NCBI RefSeq assembly: GCF_000702885.1
Contig: NZ_JNKO01000003.1
Span: 1-64,000 of the forward strand
Reading direction: 5' to 3'
Length of the DNA stretch: 64,000 bases
Source: Oribacterium sp. P6A1
GTDB lineage: Bacteria; Bacillota; Clostridia; Lachnospirales; Lachnospiraceae
Below are positions 21,442 through 29,978 of this stretch, piece after piece. A program made the translations under genes and the position numbers. The notes under the pieces were generated by a model. That model did not search any database. It was not told the DNA's origin and worked only from the letters and a program-made list of their open reading frames with translations. How positions within the stretch are numbered: the stretch's first letter is position 1; each line of letters starts with the position of its first letter.

Positions 21442-21496
21442 ATCATAGCACGGTACGAAAGAAAGGGATATTACTTGAAGTTTATAGGTGGGTATA
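21442..21496 (-). promoter_or_regulatory. cysK promoter with TATACCCACCTATAAA operator
   Basis: Minus strand -10 TATGAT (21442-21447). A 16-bp site TATACCCACCTATAAA (21481-21496) lies exactly 33 nt upstream of it. The same site at the same distance precedes the -10 at 23085-23090. Position upstream of a poor -35 fits a LysR-type activator. Confidence 0.7.
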
Positions 21497-21569
21497 GTGT
21501 TTACTTATTGCTGCTTATCAGCCCCTATGCTTGTGTAAGGGAACTCCGTCAGGACACCGGCTGCAGAAA

Positions 21570-21658: not shown

Positions 21659-22777
21659 TTATGACATCAGTAGTTTTATAAGCTCAGTGGTTTTTTGCAG
21701 CTCATCCACGGTGGTATACTCATTGACCGTATGTATATCATGCATGGCGTTGAATATGCAAAGACCGTCGATACCCCTTCTTTTGAGTATATTGTTGTCG
21801 CTGCCTCCGAAGGACTTTTTCGGTATTGGCTTCAGCGAAAGAGCGGCAAGGGCTTTTTCGTAGAGACGGAGACTTTCGGATTCGCTGTCTATCCTGTAGG
21901 TGAAGATCTTTGGAGCGCTGTTAATACGGATGTTTCCGCCTAAGGACGAAGCCTCCGCTTCAAAGACCTTTTTTATATTCGCTACTGTGGAGAGGGCTTC
22001 CTCATGAACAGAGCTTCTCACCTCTCCTGTCAGTGTTACTGCTGATGGAACAGCATTGCTTACTGTGCCGCCCCTGATGGTACCGAAATTCAGGGTGGTG
22101 TGGTCGTTTGTCCAGCCCTGCTTTATCTTGCTTACAGCCTGTGCCGCTATGGCCAGTGCATTTATGCCATTCTCAGGCTCAAATCCGGCGTGGGCGGAAC
22201 GTCCGGAAACCTCTATTTCAAAATAAATTAGTGTCGGCTCCTGAGATGAGTAGACTCCGAAATCACCGCTGGAATCGGGAACGAAGGCCTTTTTGGATTT
22301 AATCAGGGAATAGTCAAAGGCGTCTGCTCCCAATCCGTAGGTTTCTTCTGCGGGGGTAAATAAAAGCTCGATTGGAGGATGATCGAGCCCCTCTTCGAGA
22401 AGCTTTCTGTAGGCTTCATAGATACAGGTAAGTGCCGCTCTGTCATCGGCTCCGAGAACAGTGGTTCCGTCGCTTGTTATACGGCCGTCATCATGAAGTA
22501 TCACCTTTTTATCGAGACCCGGAGATACCGTATCCATATGTGCGCAGAAAAGAACCGGCTCATCATCCTTTTTTATCCCTGTTCCCGGGATAAAGCCGTA
22601 AAGATTACCGGTGTCACCGCCGAATTTTTCTCCGGCTGCGTCTTCTGTCAGGTTGACCGAAAGATCACCCCATATTTTTATGAGGTGATCTGCAACAAGT
22701 CGTTCTTTGCAGCTGATACCGTCGATTCGGCTAAGCTCCACAAAGGTGTTTACTATTCTGTTGTTTTCAATACTCAT
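21659..22777 (-). CDS. M20-family peptidase (PepT-like)
   Basis: A 372-residue zinc peptidase of the M20/M25/M40 clan. Metal-site motifs are [18 protein letters not shown] and [11 protein letters not shown], with the dimerisation domain starting near residue 180 (SGRSAHAG). It most resembles PepT-like amino- or tripeptidases; the substrate is unknown. The promoter carries the cysK-type operator, hinting at a sulfur-containing peptide substrate. The ATG lies inside the end of an upstream frame that has no start codon. Confidence 0.88.
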
Positions 22778-23066
22778 TTTTCAAAAGTCCCTTCAGAGGA
22801 TTTATGCTGGCATCTGCTCTCAGGATGCTGTTAGCTGGATTGACCGGACATCTGTCATCATGTGATTCGAAATTCCAGTGAGAAACAGAAATCTCGCTCT
22901 GATAGTCTTCCACTGTCTCTCCCTTTGGATGACGGAGATAAATCTCTCCCTTCGGGTCTGAAGAAAGTGCTGCACGCTGCCCGTCATCAGCCCATAGCTT
23001 ATCATAGTCAATCTGGCTTCCTATTCTTACATTCCAGATGGAAGGGCTTCTATAGAAGATGACACG
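22767..23066 (-). pseudogene. Start-less ORF upstream of M20 peptidase
   Basis: An open frame of 99 residues (RVIFYRSPSIWNVRIGS...LKGLLKNEY) runs from a TAA at 23067 to a TGA at 22767, overlapping the peptidase start by 11 nt. It contains no ATG, GTG or TTG at a plausible start, yet its composition (DYDKLWADDGQRAALSSD, GEIYLRHPKGE) looks protein-like. It is probably the C-terminal remnant of a decayed gene, or it uses an unusual start. I do not recognise the family. Confidence 0.5.
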
Positions 23067-23084: not shown

Positions 23085-23139
23085 ATTATGACGCAAGAGG
23101 CAATTTTTGTATAAGACGGTTAATTTATAGGTGGGTATA
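23085..23139 (-). promoter_or_regulatory. M20 unit promoter with the same operator
   Basis: Minus strand -10 CATAAT (23085-23090). The site TATACCCACCTATAAA (23124-23139) is identical to the one before cysK and again 33 nt from the -10. The predicted start point falls about 12 nt before the start-less ORF. Confidence 0.7.
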
Positions 23140-23161
23140 AATTTTACCTAACAGATGACAG

Positions 23162-23201
23162 AAAAAGAGCGGTTCCGGGAAGAGATATCCTGGGAACCGC
23201 T
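23162..23201 (-). terminator. Terminator after the molybdoenzyme operon
   Basis: Minus strand AGCGGTTCC...GGAACCGCT stem followed by CTTTTTC, about 78 nt past the DmsA-like stop. Confidence 0.85.
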
Positions 23202-23278
23202 TTGTGCGTGGTAAAGAAATATAATGTGCTGCGCATCATAAGTGAATATCGGACCGCTTCGAGAGGTCCTCCCACATT

Positions 23279-25510
23279 TTAAGAAAGTTTTTTTACTTCC
23301 ACCAGATTTGTGTGCTGACCATTCCCGTGCGCATAGGGCGTAGGATGGGAAGAAGTCAGGACGTTGATGGATCCGCCCCTGTCCACGCCCTCTTCGTCTG
23401 CGTCGTACCAGGCGCCCTGAGAAAGGGCGGTCACTCCCGGCATGATCCGTTCGGTCAGATGGGCCGGAATTCTGGTTTTTCCTCGGTCATTGAATACAAG
23501 GACCATATCCCCATCGCGGATACCGCGGGAAGCTGCGTCCTTCGGATGCATCCAAAGTGCCTGCGGATCTATCGCGTGCATGGCGAGGTTGTTGTCGTGG
23601 ATGCTGTGACATCTCCGTGGCGTATGCCAGCCCACAAGCTGGAGGGGATATCGCTGAGTCAATGGGTCCTGAGGCCCCTCGGGAGGGGCTACATAGCGGG
23701 GAATGGGTGGGAACGGGTCCCGGAATGCGAGGTGGTTTACCCGATCAGAATAAAGCTCGATCTTCCCAGAAGGCGTCGGAAATGGATACCGTTCCGGATC
23801 CTTACACTCCATCTCAAAGGCAACTCCCCCATGCTTCTCCTTATACCGGTAGATTCCAGTCTCCTTGAAAACGGCGTAATCCGGCAGCTCTGGTTCGCTT
23901 TTTTGAAGCTCACTGTAGATATACTCCAGCCACTCCGAGTGGGTCCGACCTTCGGTGAAGGCCTGACGAAGTCCCAGCCGTTCCGCCACCTCCGAAAGCC
24001 ATTCGTACTCAAACCTGCCTTCATAGAGTGGCTCTATCACCTTATTGCAGCAGCCAAGAAATTCTCCGTACTGCCAGGGATTGGTGATATTGTCGCACTC
24101 GAACATTGAAATCCCCGGCAGAAGGATATCTGCAAATTTGGCGCTTGCGGTCATAAAGAGGTCACTGCATACGATGAACTCACACTTTAGCTCATCGCTG
24201 AGGATTTCTTTGGTGCGGTTGATATCCCCGTGCTGGTTGATCAGGGTATTTCCGGCAAGATTCAGGATCATCTTGATGTTGGACAGGGGGTGCTCACCGC
24301 CGCGGACACCGTCGGCCGCGCCCATCTCCGTGCCTCTAAGGATAGCGTCAGTCCACAGGAATACCGGTATCCGGTAAGGATAGGGATTTTTCGGCATGGG
24401 GAGGGAAGGACGTTTGTGCTCGGCGTAGTCTCCCGCTCCGCAGGCATATCCGCCATGTATACCCACGTTCCCCGTCATACATGCCAGCAGGATTCCGCCG
24501 CGAACGCATTGCTCTCCATAAGCATTTCTCTGGGGGCCCCATCCCTGATAAAGGATGGAAGGACGCGCTGTGGCGTAGCGAATGGCAAGGTTCCGGATAA
24601 CCGCGGCGCTGACACCTGTAATGGCCTCTGCCCACTCCGGTGTTTTGGGAACTCCGTCCTGTTCGCCGGTGAGATAAGATAGAACGGACTCTCCGGGATC
24701 TACCCCCAGGGGCATATGGTCGGGGTCAAAGCCGATACAGCAGCGATCCAAAAATTCATGATCCACAAGCCCCTCCTGAACCAGCACCCACGCCATGGCG
24801 TCCAGCATGGCGCTGTCGGTGGCAGGGCGAATGGGAATCCATTCGGCCTTAAGCTGACGGACAGTCTCATTCTCCCGGGGGTCTACCACAACTATAGGGA
24901 TGCCCTTATCCCGGGCCTTTCTAAGATAATACATGGTTTCGCAGTCGAATTTGGTGGCAGCAGGATTGTGTCCCCAAAGGATGATCAGATTACTGTTGAG
25001 CCAATCCTCCGGGGCGTTTCCTGTATTTCCGGTGCCATACATCAAAATACTCGCCTGACGTATGCAGGCAGAGCTGTAAGAGTTATAGTAGGACAAAAAG
25101 CCGCCGTCCAGACTCAACAGGCGCATGGCCAGGCGATCCGGGCGGAATACGGCGCTGACGCCGGTGGAATAGTTGACATAGCGTGATCCGGGACCGTAGG
25201 TATCACGAATCCTGATCCATTCCCGGGCGATGGTGTCCACAGCTTCGTCCCAATCGATACGGACGAACTTTCCCTCACCCCGCCGCCCTACACGTTTCAT
25301 CGGATAGCGCAGCCGGTCTTCGCTAAGGAAGGTCTTGTGGTAATTCATTCCCCGGGCGCATGCAGTCAAAGGGACGCCGGGTGCGGCGCACTCCTGTGTA
25401 TCGGTGGTCAGGCGAAGGATCTTTCCGTCACGCACATGGGCGTGAATGATGCAGCGACCTCCGCAGTTGTTTCTGCCTGTTGTATGTATTATCTTGATTT
25501 CATCGGACAT
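23279..25510 (-). CDS. DmsA-like molybdopterin oxidoreductase (orphan)
   Basis: A 743-residue molybdenum bis-MGD enzyme of the DMSO reductase family. The N-terminal Fe-S region has Cys16, Cys20, Cys41 and Cys51; the first Cys of the usual DmsA set is replaced. YNSYSSACIRQ holds a likely Ser Mo ligand, GWGPQRNAYGEQ and TGNVGIHGG are DmsA-typical, and a C-terminal dinucleotide-binding domain follows. There is no Tat signal, and no DmsB or DmsC gene nearby. The gene is visibly richer in G+C than its neighbours. Substrate unknown (S-/N-oxide or similar). Confidence 0.88.
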   Translation of the reverse strand: MSDEIKIIHTTGRNNCGGRCIIHAHVRDGKILRLTTDTQECAAPGVPLTACARGMNYHKTFLSEDRLRYPMKRVGRRGEGKFVRIDWDEAVDTIAREWIRIRDTYGPGSRYVNYSTGVSAVFRPDRLAMRLLSLDGGFLSYYNSYSSACIRQASILMYGTGNTGNAPEDWLNSNLIILWGHNPAATKFDCETMYYLRKARDKGIPIVVVDPRENETVRQLKAEWIPIRPATDSAMLDAMAWVLVQEGLVDHEFLDRCCIGFDPDHMPLGVDPGESVLSYLTGEQDGVPKTPEWAEAITGVSAAVIRNLAIRYATARPSILYQGWGPQRNAYGEQCVRGGILLACMTGNVGIHGGYACGAGDYAEHKRPSLPMPKNPYPYRIPVFLWTDAILRGTEMGAADGVRGGEHPLSNIKMILNLAGNTLINQHGDINRTKEILSDELKCEFIVCSDLFMTASAKFADILLPGISMFECDNITNPWQYGEFLGCCNKVIEPLYEGRFEYEWLSEVAERLGLRQAFTEGRTHSEWLEYIYSELQKSEPELPDYAVFKETGIYRYKEKHGGVAFEMECKDPERYPFPTPSGKIELYSDRVNHLAFRDPFPPIPRYVAPPEGPQDPLTQRYPLQLVGWHTPRRCHSIHDNNLAMHAIDPQALWMHPKDAASRGIRDGDMVLVFNDRGKTRIPAHLTERIMPGVTALSQGAWYDADEEGVDRGGSINVLTSSHPTPYAHGNGQHTNLVEVKKLS

Positions 25511-25525
25511 GATTGTAACTCCTTG

Positions 25526-26431
25526 TTAAAACAGATCCAGCATACTGTCAAGATAGGTTTCTTCCCGTACCTTTAGCTGATACTCCGGCTTTGTCATATA
25601 GTAGAGTAAGAATTCGAAGATCACAGCGCTTCCGAGACTTCTTCCCTCTATTTTGAAATGTGAAAAACCCTCCGGTACATATATGTTCTGAATATCCTCT
25701 ATTCCGATAAATCCGGGGTTTTTCATGGCATCGGAAAATCTGTAGCCTTTTTCAGCATCCGGTGATACACAGATGTGATCTTCACAGTCCTCGCCGAGAT
25801 TCTTTCTGCTGACATTTTCATAGCATCTTTTTCTGTCGTAGCAGCCGTACCAGCAGCACTCATTACAAAGAAATTCCACCTTTTGTTTTCGTGCCGCTGA
25901 CAAGGCATTAAGCCTTAAATGTTCCCTGTTCAGTCTGAAATCGGGTACTACGTAGCTGAAGTCGTCTCTGTTAAGTTCTTTTTCAAACTCATTGAAATCC
26001 GTCAGAACCTTTGTGGTGGAGGAAACAAAATAGTAATCAGGGTAGTTTGATCTTATATGGTTAAGCAGCAGATCAGAATGAATGATCACTCCGCTTTTTG
26101 AGGTTCCGCAGTGCTCAAACATTTCACATAATGCATTACAGTTCTTATCAGTTAAATGATTCTCTTCAATAAGAGAATTACTGAAAGTAAGACGGGGGGA
26201 AATATCATACTCCTTCATAAGTGAATAAACATCTTCAGGAGTTTCTTCTCCGAAACCGACCCGTCCGCCTCCCCAGAGACAGTCCTGAGGGGCGCCGTAT
26301 ATGGAGCCTATATCACACCAGTCATAGAAATACTCTCTGTGTTCACGAAAAAGCGATAAAAACACTTTATACAATTCATAGAACTCAAATAATCCCGGAA
26401 GGTGGTAGTAAGCCTTTGCGTTTTCTGTCAT
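25526..26431 (-). CDS. U32-peptidase-like Fe-S protein
   Basis: A 301-residue protein with a Cys-rich cluster in the middle (LCNECCWYGCYDRKRC, plus a later DHIC) and a C-terminal SHFKIEGRSLG. The KIEGR signature and four clustered cysteines are typical of the U32 family (UbiU/UbiV, RlhA), whose members bind [4Fe-4S] and act in hydroxylation or RNA modification rather than proteolysis. It lies 15 nt before the molybdoenzyme and 12 nt after the ABC ATPase, so it is in their operon. Its role there is unknown. Confidence 0.7.
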   Translation of the reverse strand: MTENAKAYYHLPGLFEFYELYKVFLSLFREHREYFYDWCDIGSIYGAPQDCLWGGGRVGFGEETPEDVYSLMKEYDISPRLTFSNSLIEENHLTDKNCNALCEMFEHCGTSKSGVIIHSDLLLNHIRSNYPDYYFVSSTTKVLTDFNEFEKELNRDDFSYVVPDFRLNREHLRLNALSAARKQKVEFLCNECCWYGCYDRKRCYENVSRKNLGEDCEDHICVSPDAEKGYRFSDAMKNPGFIGIEDIQNIYVPEGFSHFKIEGRSLGSAVIFEFLLYYMTKPEYQLKVREETYLDSMLDLF

Positions 26432-26443
26432 TTCATATTCCTA

Positions 26444-27547
26444 TCATAAAGTTACGTTTTTTCTTATTTTTATTTTGATGACATTGACCTGCTCCGCATG
26501 TTCTTCATAGAAATATTCGATTTCCTCTGCGGAGTTTTCGATCATGGTAAGAGACAGGGTGTTATCGGTATGCCTTATGTCGAATTTGTCTCCGCCGTAG
26601 GAAGCGCTTATGATGCAGTTCTCATCCTGCTCCGAATACTCCACAGTCAGGTTTATGGGAAGCCTTCCTCCCTGAGGTATAAGAATCTGCTGTATAAGTT
26701 CCTCTATGATGAGGCGAATACGGTACTTATCCGCTGCTGCAACATCGTTTTTCAGGAGATAAGCATCAAGCTCTGCATTGAAATGAATGAAGTCATAGGA
26801 GTTTGTATCAATGACTGCTTCAAATACCTTCAGTTTCCTGATGAATCTTCTGGTTAGCTCTTTCTTCGGAGCGTCAAAGATTTCCTCAGGGCTTCCCTCC
26901 TCATAGATTCCGCCTTCATCCATGTAGAAAACCCTGTTTGATATGCTTCTTGCCAGATTCATTTCATGGGTCACTATCATCATGGTGGTTCCGCCTCTTG
27001 AGAGGTCCCTTATTACCGCCTGTACCTCTGATACCATGGTTGGATCAAGGGCACTGGTAGGCTCGTCAAGAAGTATGACCTCCGGATCCATGGCAAGGGT
27101 TCTCGCGATGGCGGCACGCTGCTTCTGACCGCCGGAAAGTTCATACGGATAGCTCAGGGCCTTGTCCTCCATTCCCACTCTTTTCAGAAGTTCCATGCCC
27201 TTATCATAGGCTTCCTGCCTGCCTTTTTTCAAAAGATCCATGGGTGCCAGCATCAGGTTCTCAATGACCGTGAGATGCCCGAAGAGGTTGAAGGACTGGA
27301 ATACCATTCCCATCTTCTGTCTCGCTTTTTTTATGTCATAGCCTTTTCTGGTAATGTCTTCGCCGTCAAATATGATCTGCCCCGAGGTGGGTTTTTCCAG
27401 AAGGTTCATGCAGCGGATAAGGGTTGATTTTCCTGTGCCTGAAGGTCCGATCACAGCTATAACGTCTCCATCATTTATGGTGAAGGAAACATCTTTAAGC
27501 GGTGATACATTGTTGTATTTTTTTGTAAGGTTTCGGATCTCAATCAT
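26444..27547 (-). CDS. Amino-acid-type ABC transporter ATPase with fused C-terminal domain
   Basis: Residues 1-245 are a GlnQ/HisP-like ATPase: Walker A GPSGTGKST, Q-loop MVFQSFNLF, signature LSGGQKQR, Walker B VILLDEPTSALDP and the H-loop THE. Residues ~250-367 are an extra domain; RIRLIIEELIQQILIP and later Gly/Asp-rich segments suggest a GHKL/RsbW-like fold, which is speculative. GlnQ proteins are normally ~245 residues. The ATG overlaps the end of the permease gene by 8 nt, so translation is coupled. Confidence 0.88.
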   Translation of the reverse strand: MIEIRNLTKKYNNVSPLKDVSFTINDGDVIAVIGPSGTGKSTLIRCMNLLEKPTSGQIIFDGEDITRKGYDIKKARQKMGMVFQSFNLFGHLTVIENLMLAPMDLLKKGRQEAYDKGMELLKRVGMEDKALSYPYELSGGQKQRAAIARTLAMDPEVILLDEPTSALDPTMVSEVQAVIRDLSRGGTTMMIVTHEMNLARSISNRVFYMDEGGIYEEGSPEEIFDAPKKELTRRFIRKLKVFEAVIDTNSYDFIHFNAELDAYLLKNDVAAADKYRIRLIIEELIQQILIPQGGRLPINLTVEYSEQDENCIISASYGGDKFDIRHTDNTLSLTMIENSAEEIEYFYEEHAEQVNVIKIKIRKNVTL

Positions 27548-29843
27548 GAGTATTCACCCCCTTAAGTATATCTTCACGATTTCTCTTTTTCGGGTCAATG
27601 CCTGTTTCGATATGACCCACGATAAAGGTGAGAAGTCCGCCAAGAATAAAGTATATAACCGCTACAGCTATAAGCGGGAAAAATGCTTCATAGGTCCTTC
27701 CACGTACGATGTCTCCCATTTTAGTGAGATCCTGAACGGCTATGTAACCGACTATGGCGGTGGCTTTCACAAGTGATACTATGGAGCTCTTGAAAGCCGG
27801 CAGAAAATGAGGTACCGCCTGTGGGAGTATGATACGGAAGAAGGAATGTATATCTCCGTATCCAAGAGCAAAGGCGGCTTCAGTCTGCCCCTTATCGATG
27901 GCTCCGACTCCGGATTTAAGCATTCCGAATACACCGGAACCGAATACAAGGGTAAAGCCTATTATAGCCACAGCAGTTCCGCTCAGCTGTGATTTTGCGA
28001 AAATGATGTAGTACAGGATCATGAGAAGCACTACCATGGGCATGCCCTGTACCAGCCACACAAAGAAAACGGCAAAGGCATTGGCAGCCTTGTTTCCATT
28101 TCTGCATAACATGTAGATAAGAAAACCGAGGATCGTACCGAAAACTATGGAAAGTGAGGTTATGATGAGGGTAGTGAGAATTCCGGAAATGAACAGCTTG
28201 TACCGGTCCTCTCTTATAAAGGTTTTTTCAAAGCTTTCCTTAAGGCTGCCGAGGAAAGTGTTGTCTTCTGTTCTTCCGGCGGTGCTTGCACTTCTCACGA
28301 TAAGAACATAATATGCAGGAAGATATTCTATAAAGTTCAGAGATTCCTTTCGTTCATCCGTAACAACAAGTGAACCGCTGATGATATCTGCTTTTCCGGA
28401 TCCTATGGAAGAAAGAACGGCTGAGAGATCAAGAGGGATGAACTCAACATGTACATCCAGATCTTTGGCAATTAGGAGCAGCATTTCCACGTCAAGACCA
28501 AGAACCTCCCCGCCTGTACCCACATAGCTCATAGGCTGTAAAGCATCACCTGTCGCTACGGTCACAGTGCCGTTTTTACCGGGCCAATCCTGAACCGGAA
28601 CAGTTTTTACGGATTCATCGGCCCCTGTCCATTTTTTCCAAAGAGCATCTTTTGTGGATTCCGGGATCCTGTCATAGGCTGCCTGCCACTCTTCTATACG
28701 AGAATCATCTTTTGCGAAACCGAATCCAAAGGTTGTTTCACCTAGATTTATGGGGAAAAGGGCCAGCTCGTCATCTCTGTTTGCAGCCAGCTCGGCCACC
28801 GCATTGTTCATAAATCCGGCATCGGTCTTATGGGTTTTGATGCCAAGAATCATGTCAGCCAGGGATGTGAAGTAGGTATACTCCTTTGCGCTTTTTACCT
28901 TGGAGGAAATAAGTGATTCAAAGGGAGCTCCGTTAAGCATGGAAATGGTTTTTCCGTTCAATTCATCAAAGGTCTTATATTCAGCTTCTTTAGGGGAAGC
29001 AAGGTTTTCTGTGAAAGATGAAAGACTTTTTGCCGGAACGGCAAGCACTATACCGCCAGAGCTTGTGGGATCGGAAAACAGCACCTCTTCAGAGCGCTCG
29101 GGAGTGACATTCATATCCGTGGTGAAATCGTATTTACCGGACTGTATGGCAGGGATTCTGGCAGAAAAATCCACATCCCCAAGATCCAGAGCATAGCCTC
29201 TGTCACGGCAGAATCTGACTACCAGATCTATGTCATAACCAACATTTTTTCCGTCCTTTATGTAGGACCAGGGCATGTCTGTGGAGGTGGTGATGACATG
29301 GATGGTGCCCTTCTCTCCTGAGAGGTCATCCATGGGTACTGTTTTCTTCTCTTCGTCGACACCCATCCAGATGTCGTCTATTTCCTGAAGTGTACCGTCT
29401 GTGCGGATCTTCTTCAGGAATTCATTCAATTCCTCGCAGAGTGCTGCGCTCTTCTCGTCGTTTTTACGGAAAGCGAAGCTGTAGTCCTGACTGGTTATAC
29501 GGTCGTGAATGTAATCGATCTCAGGATTCTCTGCATGCATGGTCTTCAGGTTAGGCTCGTCTCCTAAGTAGGCATCTATCTTTCCTGCAAGAAGTGCTGA
29601 ATTACAGTCAGGATAATTGTTGTAATACAGGTACTCACAATCGGGAAAATATCTGGCCGCAGCATCCTCCATAAGAGTTCCCGTGAGGACGCCTAATCGT
29701 TTTACCTTATAGTCCTGCCAGTGTATGCCGGAATCGGAGCCGGGGGCGCCGCTGTCAGCCAGTGCTTTTTCGGAGAAAAAAACGGGCAGAAAAAGAAATG
29801 CCAGAGAAAAGATACAAAACAGTTTCTTAAAAACATTTTTCAT
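27540..29843 (-). CDS. Fused substrate-binding/permease protein of amino-acid ABC transporter
   Basis: A 767-residue protein from the start at 29843 (AAAGG upstream and signal peptide MKNVFKKLFCIFSLAFLF); an upstream in-frame ATG lacks both. In order: signal peptide, a lobe-2-only SBP_bac_3 segment (about 35-155), a complete SBP_bac_3 domain (about 180-430), a lobe-1-only segment (about 435-520), then a HisM/GlnP-type membrane domain with five or so helices and an EAAFALGYG coupling loop. The partial lobes at the ends could pair into one binding domain. It probably imports a polar amino acid with the ATPase encoded next. Confidence 0.88.
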   Translation of the reverse strand: MKNVFKKLFCIFSLAFLFLPVFFSEKALADSGAPGSDSGIHWQDYKVKRLGVLTGTLMEDAAARYFPDCEYLYYNNYPDCNSALLAGKIDAYLGDEPNLKTMHAENPEIDYIHDRITSQDYSFAFRKNDEKSAALCEELNEFLKKIRTDGTLQEIDDIWMGVDEEKKTVPMDDLSGEKGTIHVITTSTDMPWSYIKDGKNVGYDIDLVVRFCRDRGYALDLGDVDFSARIPAIQSGKYDFTTDMNVTPERSEEVLFSDPTSSGGIVLAVPAKSLSSFTENLASPKEAEYKTFDELNGKTISMLNGAPFESLISSKVKSAKEYTYFTSLADMILGIKTHKTDAGFMNNAVAELAANRDDELALFPINLGETTFGFGFAKDDSRIEEWQAAYDRIPESTKDALWKKWTGADESVKTVPVQDWPGKNGTVTVATGDALQPMSYVGTGGEVLGLDVEMLLLIAKDLDVHVEFIPLDLSAVLSSIGSGKADIISGSLVVTDERKESLNFIEYLPAYYVLIVRSASTAGRTEDNTFLGSLKESFEKTFIREDRYKLFISGILTTLIITSLSIVFGTILGFLIYMLCRNGNKAANAFAVFFVWLVQGMPMVVLLMILYYIIFAKSQLSGTAVAIIGFTLVFGSGVFGMLKSGVGAIDKGQTEAAFALGYGDIHSFFRIILPQAVPHFLPAFKSSIVSLVKATAIVGYIAVQDLTKMGDIVRGRTYEAFFPLIAVAVIYFILGGLLTFIVGHIETGIDPKKRNREDILKGVNTHD

Positions 29844-29914
29844 AATAAAAAACCTTTCATACTCGTGATTTTGTATATATATGAAATCGGCAGGAAAACC
29901 TGTTTGATTATGGT

Positions 29915-29969
29915 AAAAAAACTCATGACCATACGTAAGCTTAATTTTGAGCTTAAGCCGGTCATGAGT
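29915..29969 (-). terminator. Terminator of the uronate operon
   Basis: Minus strand ACTCATGACC/GGTCATGAGT 10-bp stem enclosing a TAAGCT/AGCTTA helix, followed by TTTTTTT. It lies 10 nt past the DUF2264 stop and separates that operon from the ABC/molybdoenzyme operon. Confidence 0.9.
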
Positions 29970-29978
29970 CAATCGGTT

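Follow-up and report, generated by a model that had tools for sequence, protein, structure and literature searches.

A bare DmsA-like molybdoenzyme gene at the 3' end of an amino-acid importer operon in Oribacterium sp. P6A1, and a candidate molybdenum-cofactor import cassette

The window analysed here is a stretch of 64,000 nucleotides (nt) from Oribacterium sp. P6A1 (positions 1–64000 of contig NZ_JNKO01000003.1; the source genome comprises 3.70 Mb in 95 contigs), and our subject is a leftward unit of four genes within it, which code for an amino-acid permease with fused binding domains (hereafter PERM), its ATPase (ATP), a U32-like protein and a DmsA-like molybdoenzyme. The unit is likely to be an amino-acid importer operon at the level of a subclade, with a free-standing cytosolic DmsA that one species acquired horizontally at the operon's 3' end. 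Directly observed are the site at which dmsA went in, its foreign composition, its membership of a clade of bare DmsA proteins and the lack of adjoining genes for DmsB, DmsC or TorD. The arrangement is real and has a rather ordinary explanation, in that a variant form of a known enzyme would have been acquired horizontally.

The gene unit and its DmsA

All four genes are open reading frames (ORFs) on the minus strand: PERM (27540–29843), with secreted amino-acid-binding domains fused to a GlnP-like ABC permease; ATP (26444–27547), a polar-amino-acid-type ABC ATPase; the U32-like gene (25526–26431), with possible iron-sulphur (Fe-S) cysteines C98, C193, C197 and C221; and dmsA (23279–25510; 743 codons), for a bare cytosolic DmsA-like molybdoenzyme. 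The coordinates bear out the spacing given in an earlier sequence-only reading of this DNA, with an 8-nt overlap between PERM and ATP, 12 nt between ATP and the U32-like gene and 15 nt between the latter and dmsA. The terminators which that reading placed at each end of the unit are likewise confirmed: a simple terminator scan flagged neither, and both emerge from folding, the upstream one at 29905–29978 (minus strand; −25.1 kcal/mol, z −6.1) and the one downstream of dmsA at 23155–23215 (minus strand; −18.8 kcal/mol, z −4.0). An alternative, longer PERM start (TTG at 29972) would run into the upstream terminator. Co-transcription of the four genes in the source genome is possible.

The dmsA product scores 851.1 bits against TIGR02166 (DmsA/YnfE), above the curated cut-off of 777.7. 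Its N-terminus, read directly, is MSDEIKIIHTTGRNNCGGRC and carries no Tat leader, in agreement with the sequence-only reading. The enzyme had also been said to have no DmsB/DmsC partner, and indeed none of DmsB, DmsC and TorD is encoded in the four-gene unit; the genome-wide search, which was made for TorD only, gave no match. The description of its first Fe-S cysteine as changed is true against the first-cysteine motif that we take E. coli DmsA to have, in that the window protein departs from the cluster motif CxxxCxxxC...C by a Gly in place of the first Cys, but the change is not peculiar to it. Among the 80 relatives retained of 219 from named genomes, which we used for all DmsA comparisons, this position holds Gly in 69, Ser in 8, Cys in 2 and Asn in 1. 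A Cys one residue earlier is found in 9 of the 69 Gly relatives (13 among all relatives without Cys at the first position), and all 16 other members of the clade to which the window DmsA belongs have Gly at the first position and no Cys one residue earlier. We therefore reject the changed cysteine as a sign of decay, Gly being the norm for both the subfamily and the clade. The cysteine columns C16, C20 and C51 and the serine column S146 are conserved in 80/80 relatives; through alignment with DorA, S146 is presumably the Mo-ligand position.

In composition, dmsA stands apart: its GC (0.554) and GC3 (0.621) are the highest, and its codon match the poorest, among the 38 window ORFs of at least 200 amino acids (aa). 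This per-gene check of GC and codon usage ranks dmsA first of the 38 ORFs and upholds the observation that it is much richer in G+C than its neighbours. The separate origin that had been suggested for it is supported by the composition, by its placement in the bare clade and by its absence from the corresponding slots of congeners (see below).

A quick tree was derived from 82 rows (the window DmsA, the 80 relatives and E. coli DmsA), with the bare and fusion classes set by the length of the N-terminal extension and one relative (L148) assigned to the Tat type by hand. The window DmsA falls inside a 17-row clade of bare proteins (SH-aLRT 100), nearest to those of Clostridiaceae A68, Hungatella and Clostridium MCC353 (69–71% identity). 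Around this clade lie fused forms, comprising 35 TorD-DmsA, 9 flavin-oxidoreductase-TorD-DmsA and 3 DmsB-TorD-DmsA proteins, with domain scans confirming one example of each; the remaining relatives are 10 of the Tat type and 7 bare proteins outside the clade. The Tat-type loci have DmsB and TorD in 10/10 cases, with a DmsC match to each query in 5/10. At the 16 other bare-clade loci, DmsB, DmsC, TorD, the flavin oxidoreductase, PERM and U32 are each found in 0/16 of the flanks read, several of which are short at contig ends; MobA is present in 5/16 and an ABC ATPase of another kind in 1. Given these partner counts and the Gly norm, neither the lack of partners nor the cysteine change is out of the ordinary for the clade.

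The window DmsA resembles the DmsA of DmsABC in scoring above the TIGR02166 cut-off, in the Ser ligand column and in three of the four cluster cysteines, and differs from it in the missing Tat leader, the Gly for the first cysteine and the lack of an adjoining DmsB, DmsC or TorD gene. With BisC, the cytosolic biotin sulphoxide reductase, it shares the likely character of a cytosolic stand-alone S-oxide reductase without partner subunits; however, it scores 406 bits against TIGR00509 (cut-off 1018) and keeps three cluster cysteines, whereas BisC is not known to have the Fe-S cluster. The Gordonibacter catechol dehydroxylases (e.g., Dodh) are also molybdenum enzymes without a Tat leader, and are reported to form, in all likelihood, soluble complexes (PMC7028382). 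These co-localise with a small 4Fe-4S protein; no partner of this kind accompanies the window enzyme, which is of the DmsA subfamily.

Some of the relatives have further architectures. Single polypeptides of ~1356 aa in L189 (6102–10172) and its Solobacterium relatives combine a flavin NAD(P)H oxidoreductase, a TorD chaperone and DmsA (L189 scanned), and L155 (6711–10229) fuses DmsB, TorD and DmsA (scanned), with L151 and L170 similar by length and DmsB match. In L185 (3725–10166), a bare DmsA lies, by our reading, directly behind the hydrogenase maturation genes HydE, HydG and HydF. Together, the bare and fused forms (TorD-DmsA, DmsB-TorD-DmsA and flavin oxidoreductase-TorD-DmsA) constitute a ready set for the wiring of cytosolic S-oxide reductases.

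Conservation of the gene order and the insertion slot

Counting the source genome, the U32-like gene is matched in 47/200 genomes of the family and 9/17 of the genus. Across 36 U32-like regions from 35 family genomes, tblastn recovers the U32 match in 36/36 and a PERM or DmsA match in 0/36; ABC ATPases of other kinds (26–46% identity) are found in 10/36, directly beside the gene in L096 and L091. Clustering of the ORFs from 44 loci (36 family and 8 genus, with L074 lacking a called U32 ORF) yields ABC ATPases in 11 loci and no other neighbour family in more than 3. Besides the source, eight genus genomes have a U32 locus: G203 keeps PERM-ATP-U32 (with ~135 nt between ATP and U32, as against 12 nt in the window), G204 keeps ATP-U32 and the other six are without the transporter. 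Adjacency of transporter and U32 is seen in 3/17 genus genomes, these being the source, G203 and G204, in the last of which only the ATPase remains; as it is seen in these alone, the link between importer and U32 can be regarded as a feature of a subclade. The U32 orthologues of G203 and G204 are 87–89% identical. In G204, most of the fused permease gene has been deleted (L125 5678–5955), leaving the ATPase and the U32-like gene.

The full four-gene order is seen in the source genome alone. The sequence-only reading had proposed a new catabolic or respiratory route for an imported compound and had named co-occurrence beforehand as its refutation test; that test gives the proposal no support, with PERM or DmsA in 0/36 regions around the U32-like gene and PERM or U32 in 0/16 of the flanks read around bare DmsA. 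A conserved four-gene pathway as a general rule is rejected on these counts and on the absence of dmsA from the site in G203 and G204, and there is no sign of selection keeping the four genes together.

The gene dmsA lies between the U32 stop and a regulatory element common to the window, G203 and G204. It is absent from the syntenic site in G203 and G204, and the sole congener searched for it elsewhere, G178, gave no match; the DmsA search covered the 200 family genomes, which include this one congener besides the source, and not the 17-genome genus set. What occupies the slot differs in each case. In G204, a terminator follows within 50 nt of the U32 stop, and then the common sequence bearing TTTATACCCACCTATAAA, with nothing else; in G203, the slot contains a rhodanese/cyclophilin-like protein and a macrodomain gene; in the window, it contains dmsA plus a terminator different from that of G204. 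The palindromic element TTTATACCCACCTATAAA is an exact match at 23124–23141 (minus strand), on the far side of the slot. Allowing up to 3 mismatches, the window has 2 matches to it as against 0.04 expected. It is also found ahead of cysK in G203 (L124) and, in G204 (L125), ahead of a second amino-acid-type transporter, a placement that makes it a likely operator of a sulphur regulon. The second window site of this type is at 21481–21498; the two sites are near cysK and pepT.

Compared with G204, the window is without ~2.8 kb after the element. A gene remnant at 22778–23037 (minus strand), immediately ahead of pepT, is homologous to the 3' part of a 440-aa gene that is whole in G204, where it lies between the element and pepT (blastn, L125 10881–12379 against window 23037–21566, 82%). 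Given this loss, the remnant and the differing contents in the window, G203 and G204, the slot is a place of repeated remodelling. The 440-aa gene of G204 has a glutathione S-transferase (GST) C-terminal domain and is glutathionyl-hydroquinone-reductase-like by our reading. The PepT-like M20 peptidase (21659–22777, minus strand; TIGR01883 249 bits, under the cut-off of 274) is of the next unit, outside the operon. As for a vehicle for dmsA, neither a plasmid nor a phage was found: plasmid matches are all below 60% identity (best among the matches listed 48%), as are those to the phage collection (best-ranked among the matches listed 44%).

Possible roles of the importer, the U32-like protein and DmsA

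In Pfam searches, PERM contains SBP_bac_3 in three stretches and BPD_transp_1, and its best whole-protein matches in NCBIfam are to the lysine/arginine/ornithine, glutamine and cystine families, all under the cut-off. ATP contains Pfam ABC_tran and comes nearest to the NCBIfam models TcyN (271 bits, cut-off 406) and GlnQ (269 bits, cut-off 379), neither of which is reached. In GlnPQ, the substrate-binding domains are fused to the permease and the ATPase is separate. PERM and ATP share this architecture and, on domain content, are assigned to the GlnPQ kind of amino-acid importer, with no curated assignment of substrate; they differ from it in an extra ~128-aa C-terminal domain on the ATPase (window 26444–26830) and in reaching no NCBIfam equivalog cut-off. 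The extension has no Pfam match and is found in 11/200 family genomes, including the source. The same kind of fused permease adjoins it in 5/6 fetched regions.

The label of U32 Fe-S protein, given to the third gene by the sequence-only reading, holds in part. Neither Pfam nor NCBIfam gives a significant match for the window protein, which misses the PF01136 (Peptidase_U32) gathering cut-off; profile comparison with Peptidase_U32 is weak (probability 21%), and a single-sequence structure model is too poor for a fold search, with a predicted local distance difference test score (pLDDT) of 37. We nevertheless class it as U32-like, since 3/15 members of its family match PF01136 (best E 3.9e-5) and their 15-row alignment has conserved cysteines (C193, C197 and C221 invariant, C98 nearly so) and an FKIEGR motif near the C-terminus. 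It is probably an iron-sulphur protein. The cysteine set and the C-terminal motif are as in UbiU/UbiV and other U32 proteins, from which it differs by its strong divergence and lack of a significant Pfam score. A search for U32-like relatives in viral contigs gave no stretch fitting the patterns. Distant paralogues (30–35% identity) occur in L100, L101 and L102, as tandem pairs in the latter two, downstream of two genes that by our reading resemble sugar ABC permeases.

We propose that the GlnPQ-like transporter and the U32-like gene constitute the importer operon of the subclade, into which a bare dmsA would have been inserted by horizontal transfer between the U32 stop and the shared element. 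DmsA would then be expressed from the promoter of the transporter and may act as a soluble Mo-dependent S-oxide or N-oxide reductase with electrons from a cytosolic donor; no gene for an electron donor is encoded beside it. E. coli DmsA and the cytosolic BisC are reported to reduce free methionine sulphoxide (PMC7402097). Since an amino-acid importer also adjoins, our best guess at the substrate is a free amino-acid sulphoxide, for instance that of methionine. So understood, the operon illustrates how a bare DmsA may move into another host and come under whichever promoter is available there.

The same activity of E. coli DmsA and BisC also favours a real, selected pathway, wherein a sulphoxide or N-oxide amino acid would enter through the importer and be reduced by DmsA as an electron sink, with the U32-like protein serving to modify or sulphurate something. 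It would fit the tight spacing and the single terminator pair, as well as the sulphur-amino-acid genes nearby: cysK in the window and G203, a pyridoxal-phosphate (PLP) enzyme of Cys/Met metabolism and a PatB-family C-S lyase (469 bits, cut-off 340) in G203, and the second amino-acid-type transporter in G204. However, the confinement of the four-gene order to one genome, the lack of any U32 neighbour family in more than 3 of the 44 loci other than mixed ABC ATPases, and the flanks of the bare DmsA relatives, with neither PERM nor U32 in what was read, render such a pathway quite improbable. Some points do weigh against horizontal capture into an importer operon: the 15-nt gap and intact frame are equally expected of a selected, co-expressed gene; the genus sample comprises 17 genomes, with dmsA sought elsewhere in congeners in G178 alone; DmsB and DmsC were not searched for in the rest of the source genome; and the substrate and electron donor of DmsA are guesses.

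Cofactor supply and a candidate import cassette

By profile search, the source genome has no match to MoaA, MoaC, MoeA or TorD. As controls, the MoaA, MoeA and MoaC profiles each match in 11/14 known genomes and that of TorD in 5/14; MoeA was tested in the source genome and MoaC in the 17 genus genomes. Within the genus, 9/17 genomes have MoaA and 9/17 have MoaC, so both profiles work there, and the same eight genomes, with the source and G202, G203, G204 and G210 among them, are without both. A divergent MoaA missed by the profile is accordingly unlikely, the profile matching 9/17 genomes and MoaC being absent from the same eight. A missing contig is less likely as the cause, since G202, G203, G204 and G210 lack both genes too, though these four were not tested for molybdoenzymes.

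With MoaA, MoaC and MoeA not found, DmsA would either work on imported molybdenum cofactor (Moco) or be inactive. In the latter case, the recently captured dmsA would be a passenger in a host that cannot make Moco, its protein staying empty until the gene decays; the four unmatched profiles (TorD included) and the lack of MoaA and MoaC in G202, G203, G204 and G210 are in line with this. Against it, the dmsA frame is intact across 743 codons with the invariant residues kept, and the genome keeps a formate dehydrogenase with its own MobA, which argues that the cofactor is somehow obtained; we hold an inactive passenger to be rather unlikely. The formate dehydrogenase (G000:C14, L104 5147–7855) is a 902-aa enzyme of the bis-molybdopterin guanine dinucleotide (bis-MGD) type, scoring 861 bits against TIGR01591 (cut-off 666). 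Outside the window, it is followed after 24 nt by three overlapping genes for a membrane protein, a small exported protein and MobA (L104 5147–9465 in all).

The membrane protein of this cassette is 39–42% identical to proteins adjoining DmsA in Solobacterium, Oscillospiraceae and other Clostridia. It is a candidate S component: against PF09819, which we take to be the YkoE type of energy-coupling factor (ECF) S component, the L189 copy scores 25.1 bits (cut-off 25.2) and the source-genome copy has no match, leaving the gathering score unreached. An N-terminal helix is present in the small protein, whose L202 copy was modelled at pLDDT 81. The model matches PruR at Z 10.9 and 10.3; its superposition on 7kom (Z 10.9) spans 99 residues with a root-mean-square deviation of 2.5, and Foldseek gives E 8.5e-4 at a TM-score of 0.51. 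The molybdopterin domain of sulphite oxidase (SUOX) is matched with Z up to 10.3; the L189 copy scores 18.0 against PF00174, below the cut-off of 24. No cysteine is common to all ten copies checked, and the source-genome copy has none. As modelled, and by fold alone, this is a membrane-anchored protein of the PruR/SUOX fold and a putative pterin binder. PruR is described as without a Mo-ligating cysteine and as pairing with DcpA or DTB regulators (PMC13259868). The cassette protein is like PruR in fold, in small size with an N-terminal membrane helix and in having no cysteine common to all copies, but its gene neighbours are those for MobA and a candidate ECF S component, and in most loci a Moco riboswitch precedes the set.

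In 12/12 S-component loci, the gene for the S component directly adjoins that for the PruR-like protein, and their order does not vary; one locus is in the source genome, one in G175 and the other 10 are among the 80 DmsA loci, for which the analysis covered flanks of at most 8 kb. MobA is matched in 9/12, on the opposite strand in one. Immediately 5' of the cassette and on its strand, 10/12 loci have the Moco riboswitch RF01055 (L238, L186, L189, L191, L193, L202, L164, L198, L162 and L174). It is missing at the source-genome cassette, by E-value also, and at L180, the contig of which ends inside the MobA-like gene; none is found in the window at the gathering score. Among 22 DmsA loci hand-picked, not drawn at random, as controls from the 70 without an S-component match, the riboswitch occurs in 1, L192, where it is beside a MobA gene in a locus that also has MoeA, MoaA and MoaC matches. 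The association of riboswitch and cassette has a Fisher p of 5e-6, uncorrected for kinship, and the positives are related, four being of the Solobacterium group and L162/L174 and L164/L198 sister pairs. Moco RNA has been described as preceding molybdate transporters, Moco synthesis genes and Moco enzymes (PMC2408646).

In the 200 family genomes, a DmsA-query match at E <= 0.001, which defines a molybdoenzyme-positive genome here and leaves xanthine-dehydrogenase-type enzymes uncounted, is found in 36, and MoaA above the cut-off in 72 (74 at E <= 0.001). MoaA is present in 32/36 of the positive genomes, the four without it being G000 (the source), G048, G054 and G175. At E <= 1e-5, the S component occurs in 2/200 genomes, G000 and G175, i.e., in 2/4 MoaA-less molybdoenzyme genomes as against 0/32 with MoaA (p 0.0095) and 0 of the other 196 (p 0.0003). 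The positive genomes are only two, and some absences may be gaps (completeness is 93% for G048 and G175 and 96% for G054). G048 and G054, the latter with a weak DmsA match, have neither MoaA nor the S component and are left unexplained by import.

We give about an even chance to the proposal that this species cannot make Moco but imports it, with the S component, PruR-fold protein and MobA capturing extracellular cofactor and supplying it to both the captured DmsA and the formate dehydrogenase. Since the genome has MobA but no match to MoaA, MoaC or MoeA, the cofactor would be taken up as Mo-molybdopterin, the stage that follows MoeA and precedes MobA. The recurrence of the cassette suggests a candidate, though unproven, bacterial molybdenum-cofactor import system. 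We know of no earlier bacterial molybdenum-cofactor importer, and if the proposal is true this would be the first. No description of bacterial Moco import was found among the papers listed, judged by titles and the starts of abstracts, with subscription papers mostly out of reach, so that absence from print does not follow. According to one report, uptake of Moco from outside has been neither examined nor observed beyond C. elegans (PMC9793310). A mostly riboswitch-linked candidate importer in Firmicutes makes the question of Moco uptake directly testable. In G175 (G175:C76, L238 6254–8041), a genome with a DmsA match and without MoaA, the same trio is found with the Moco riboswitch between MobA and the S component.

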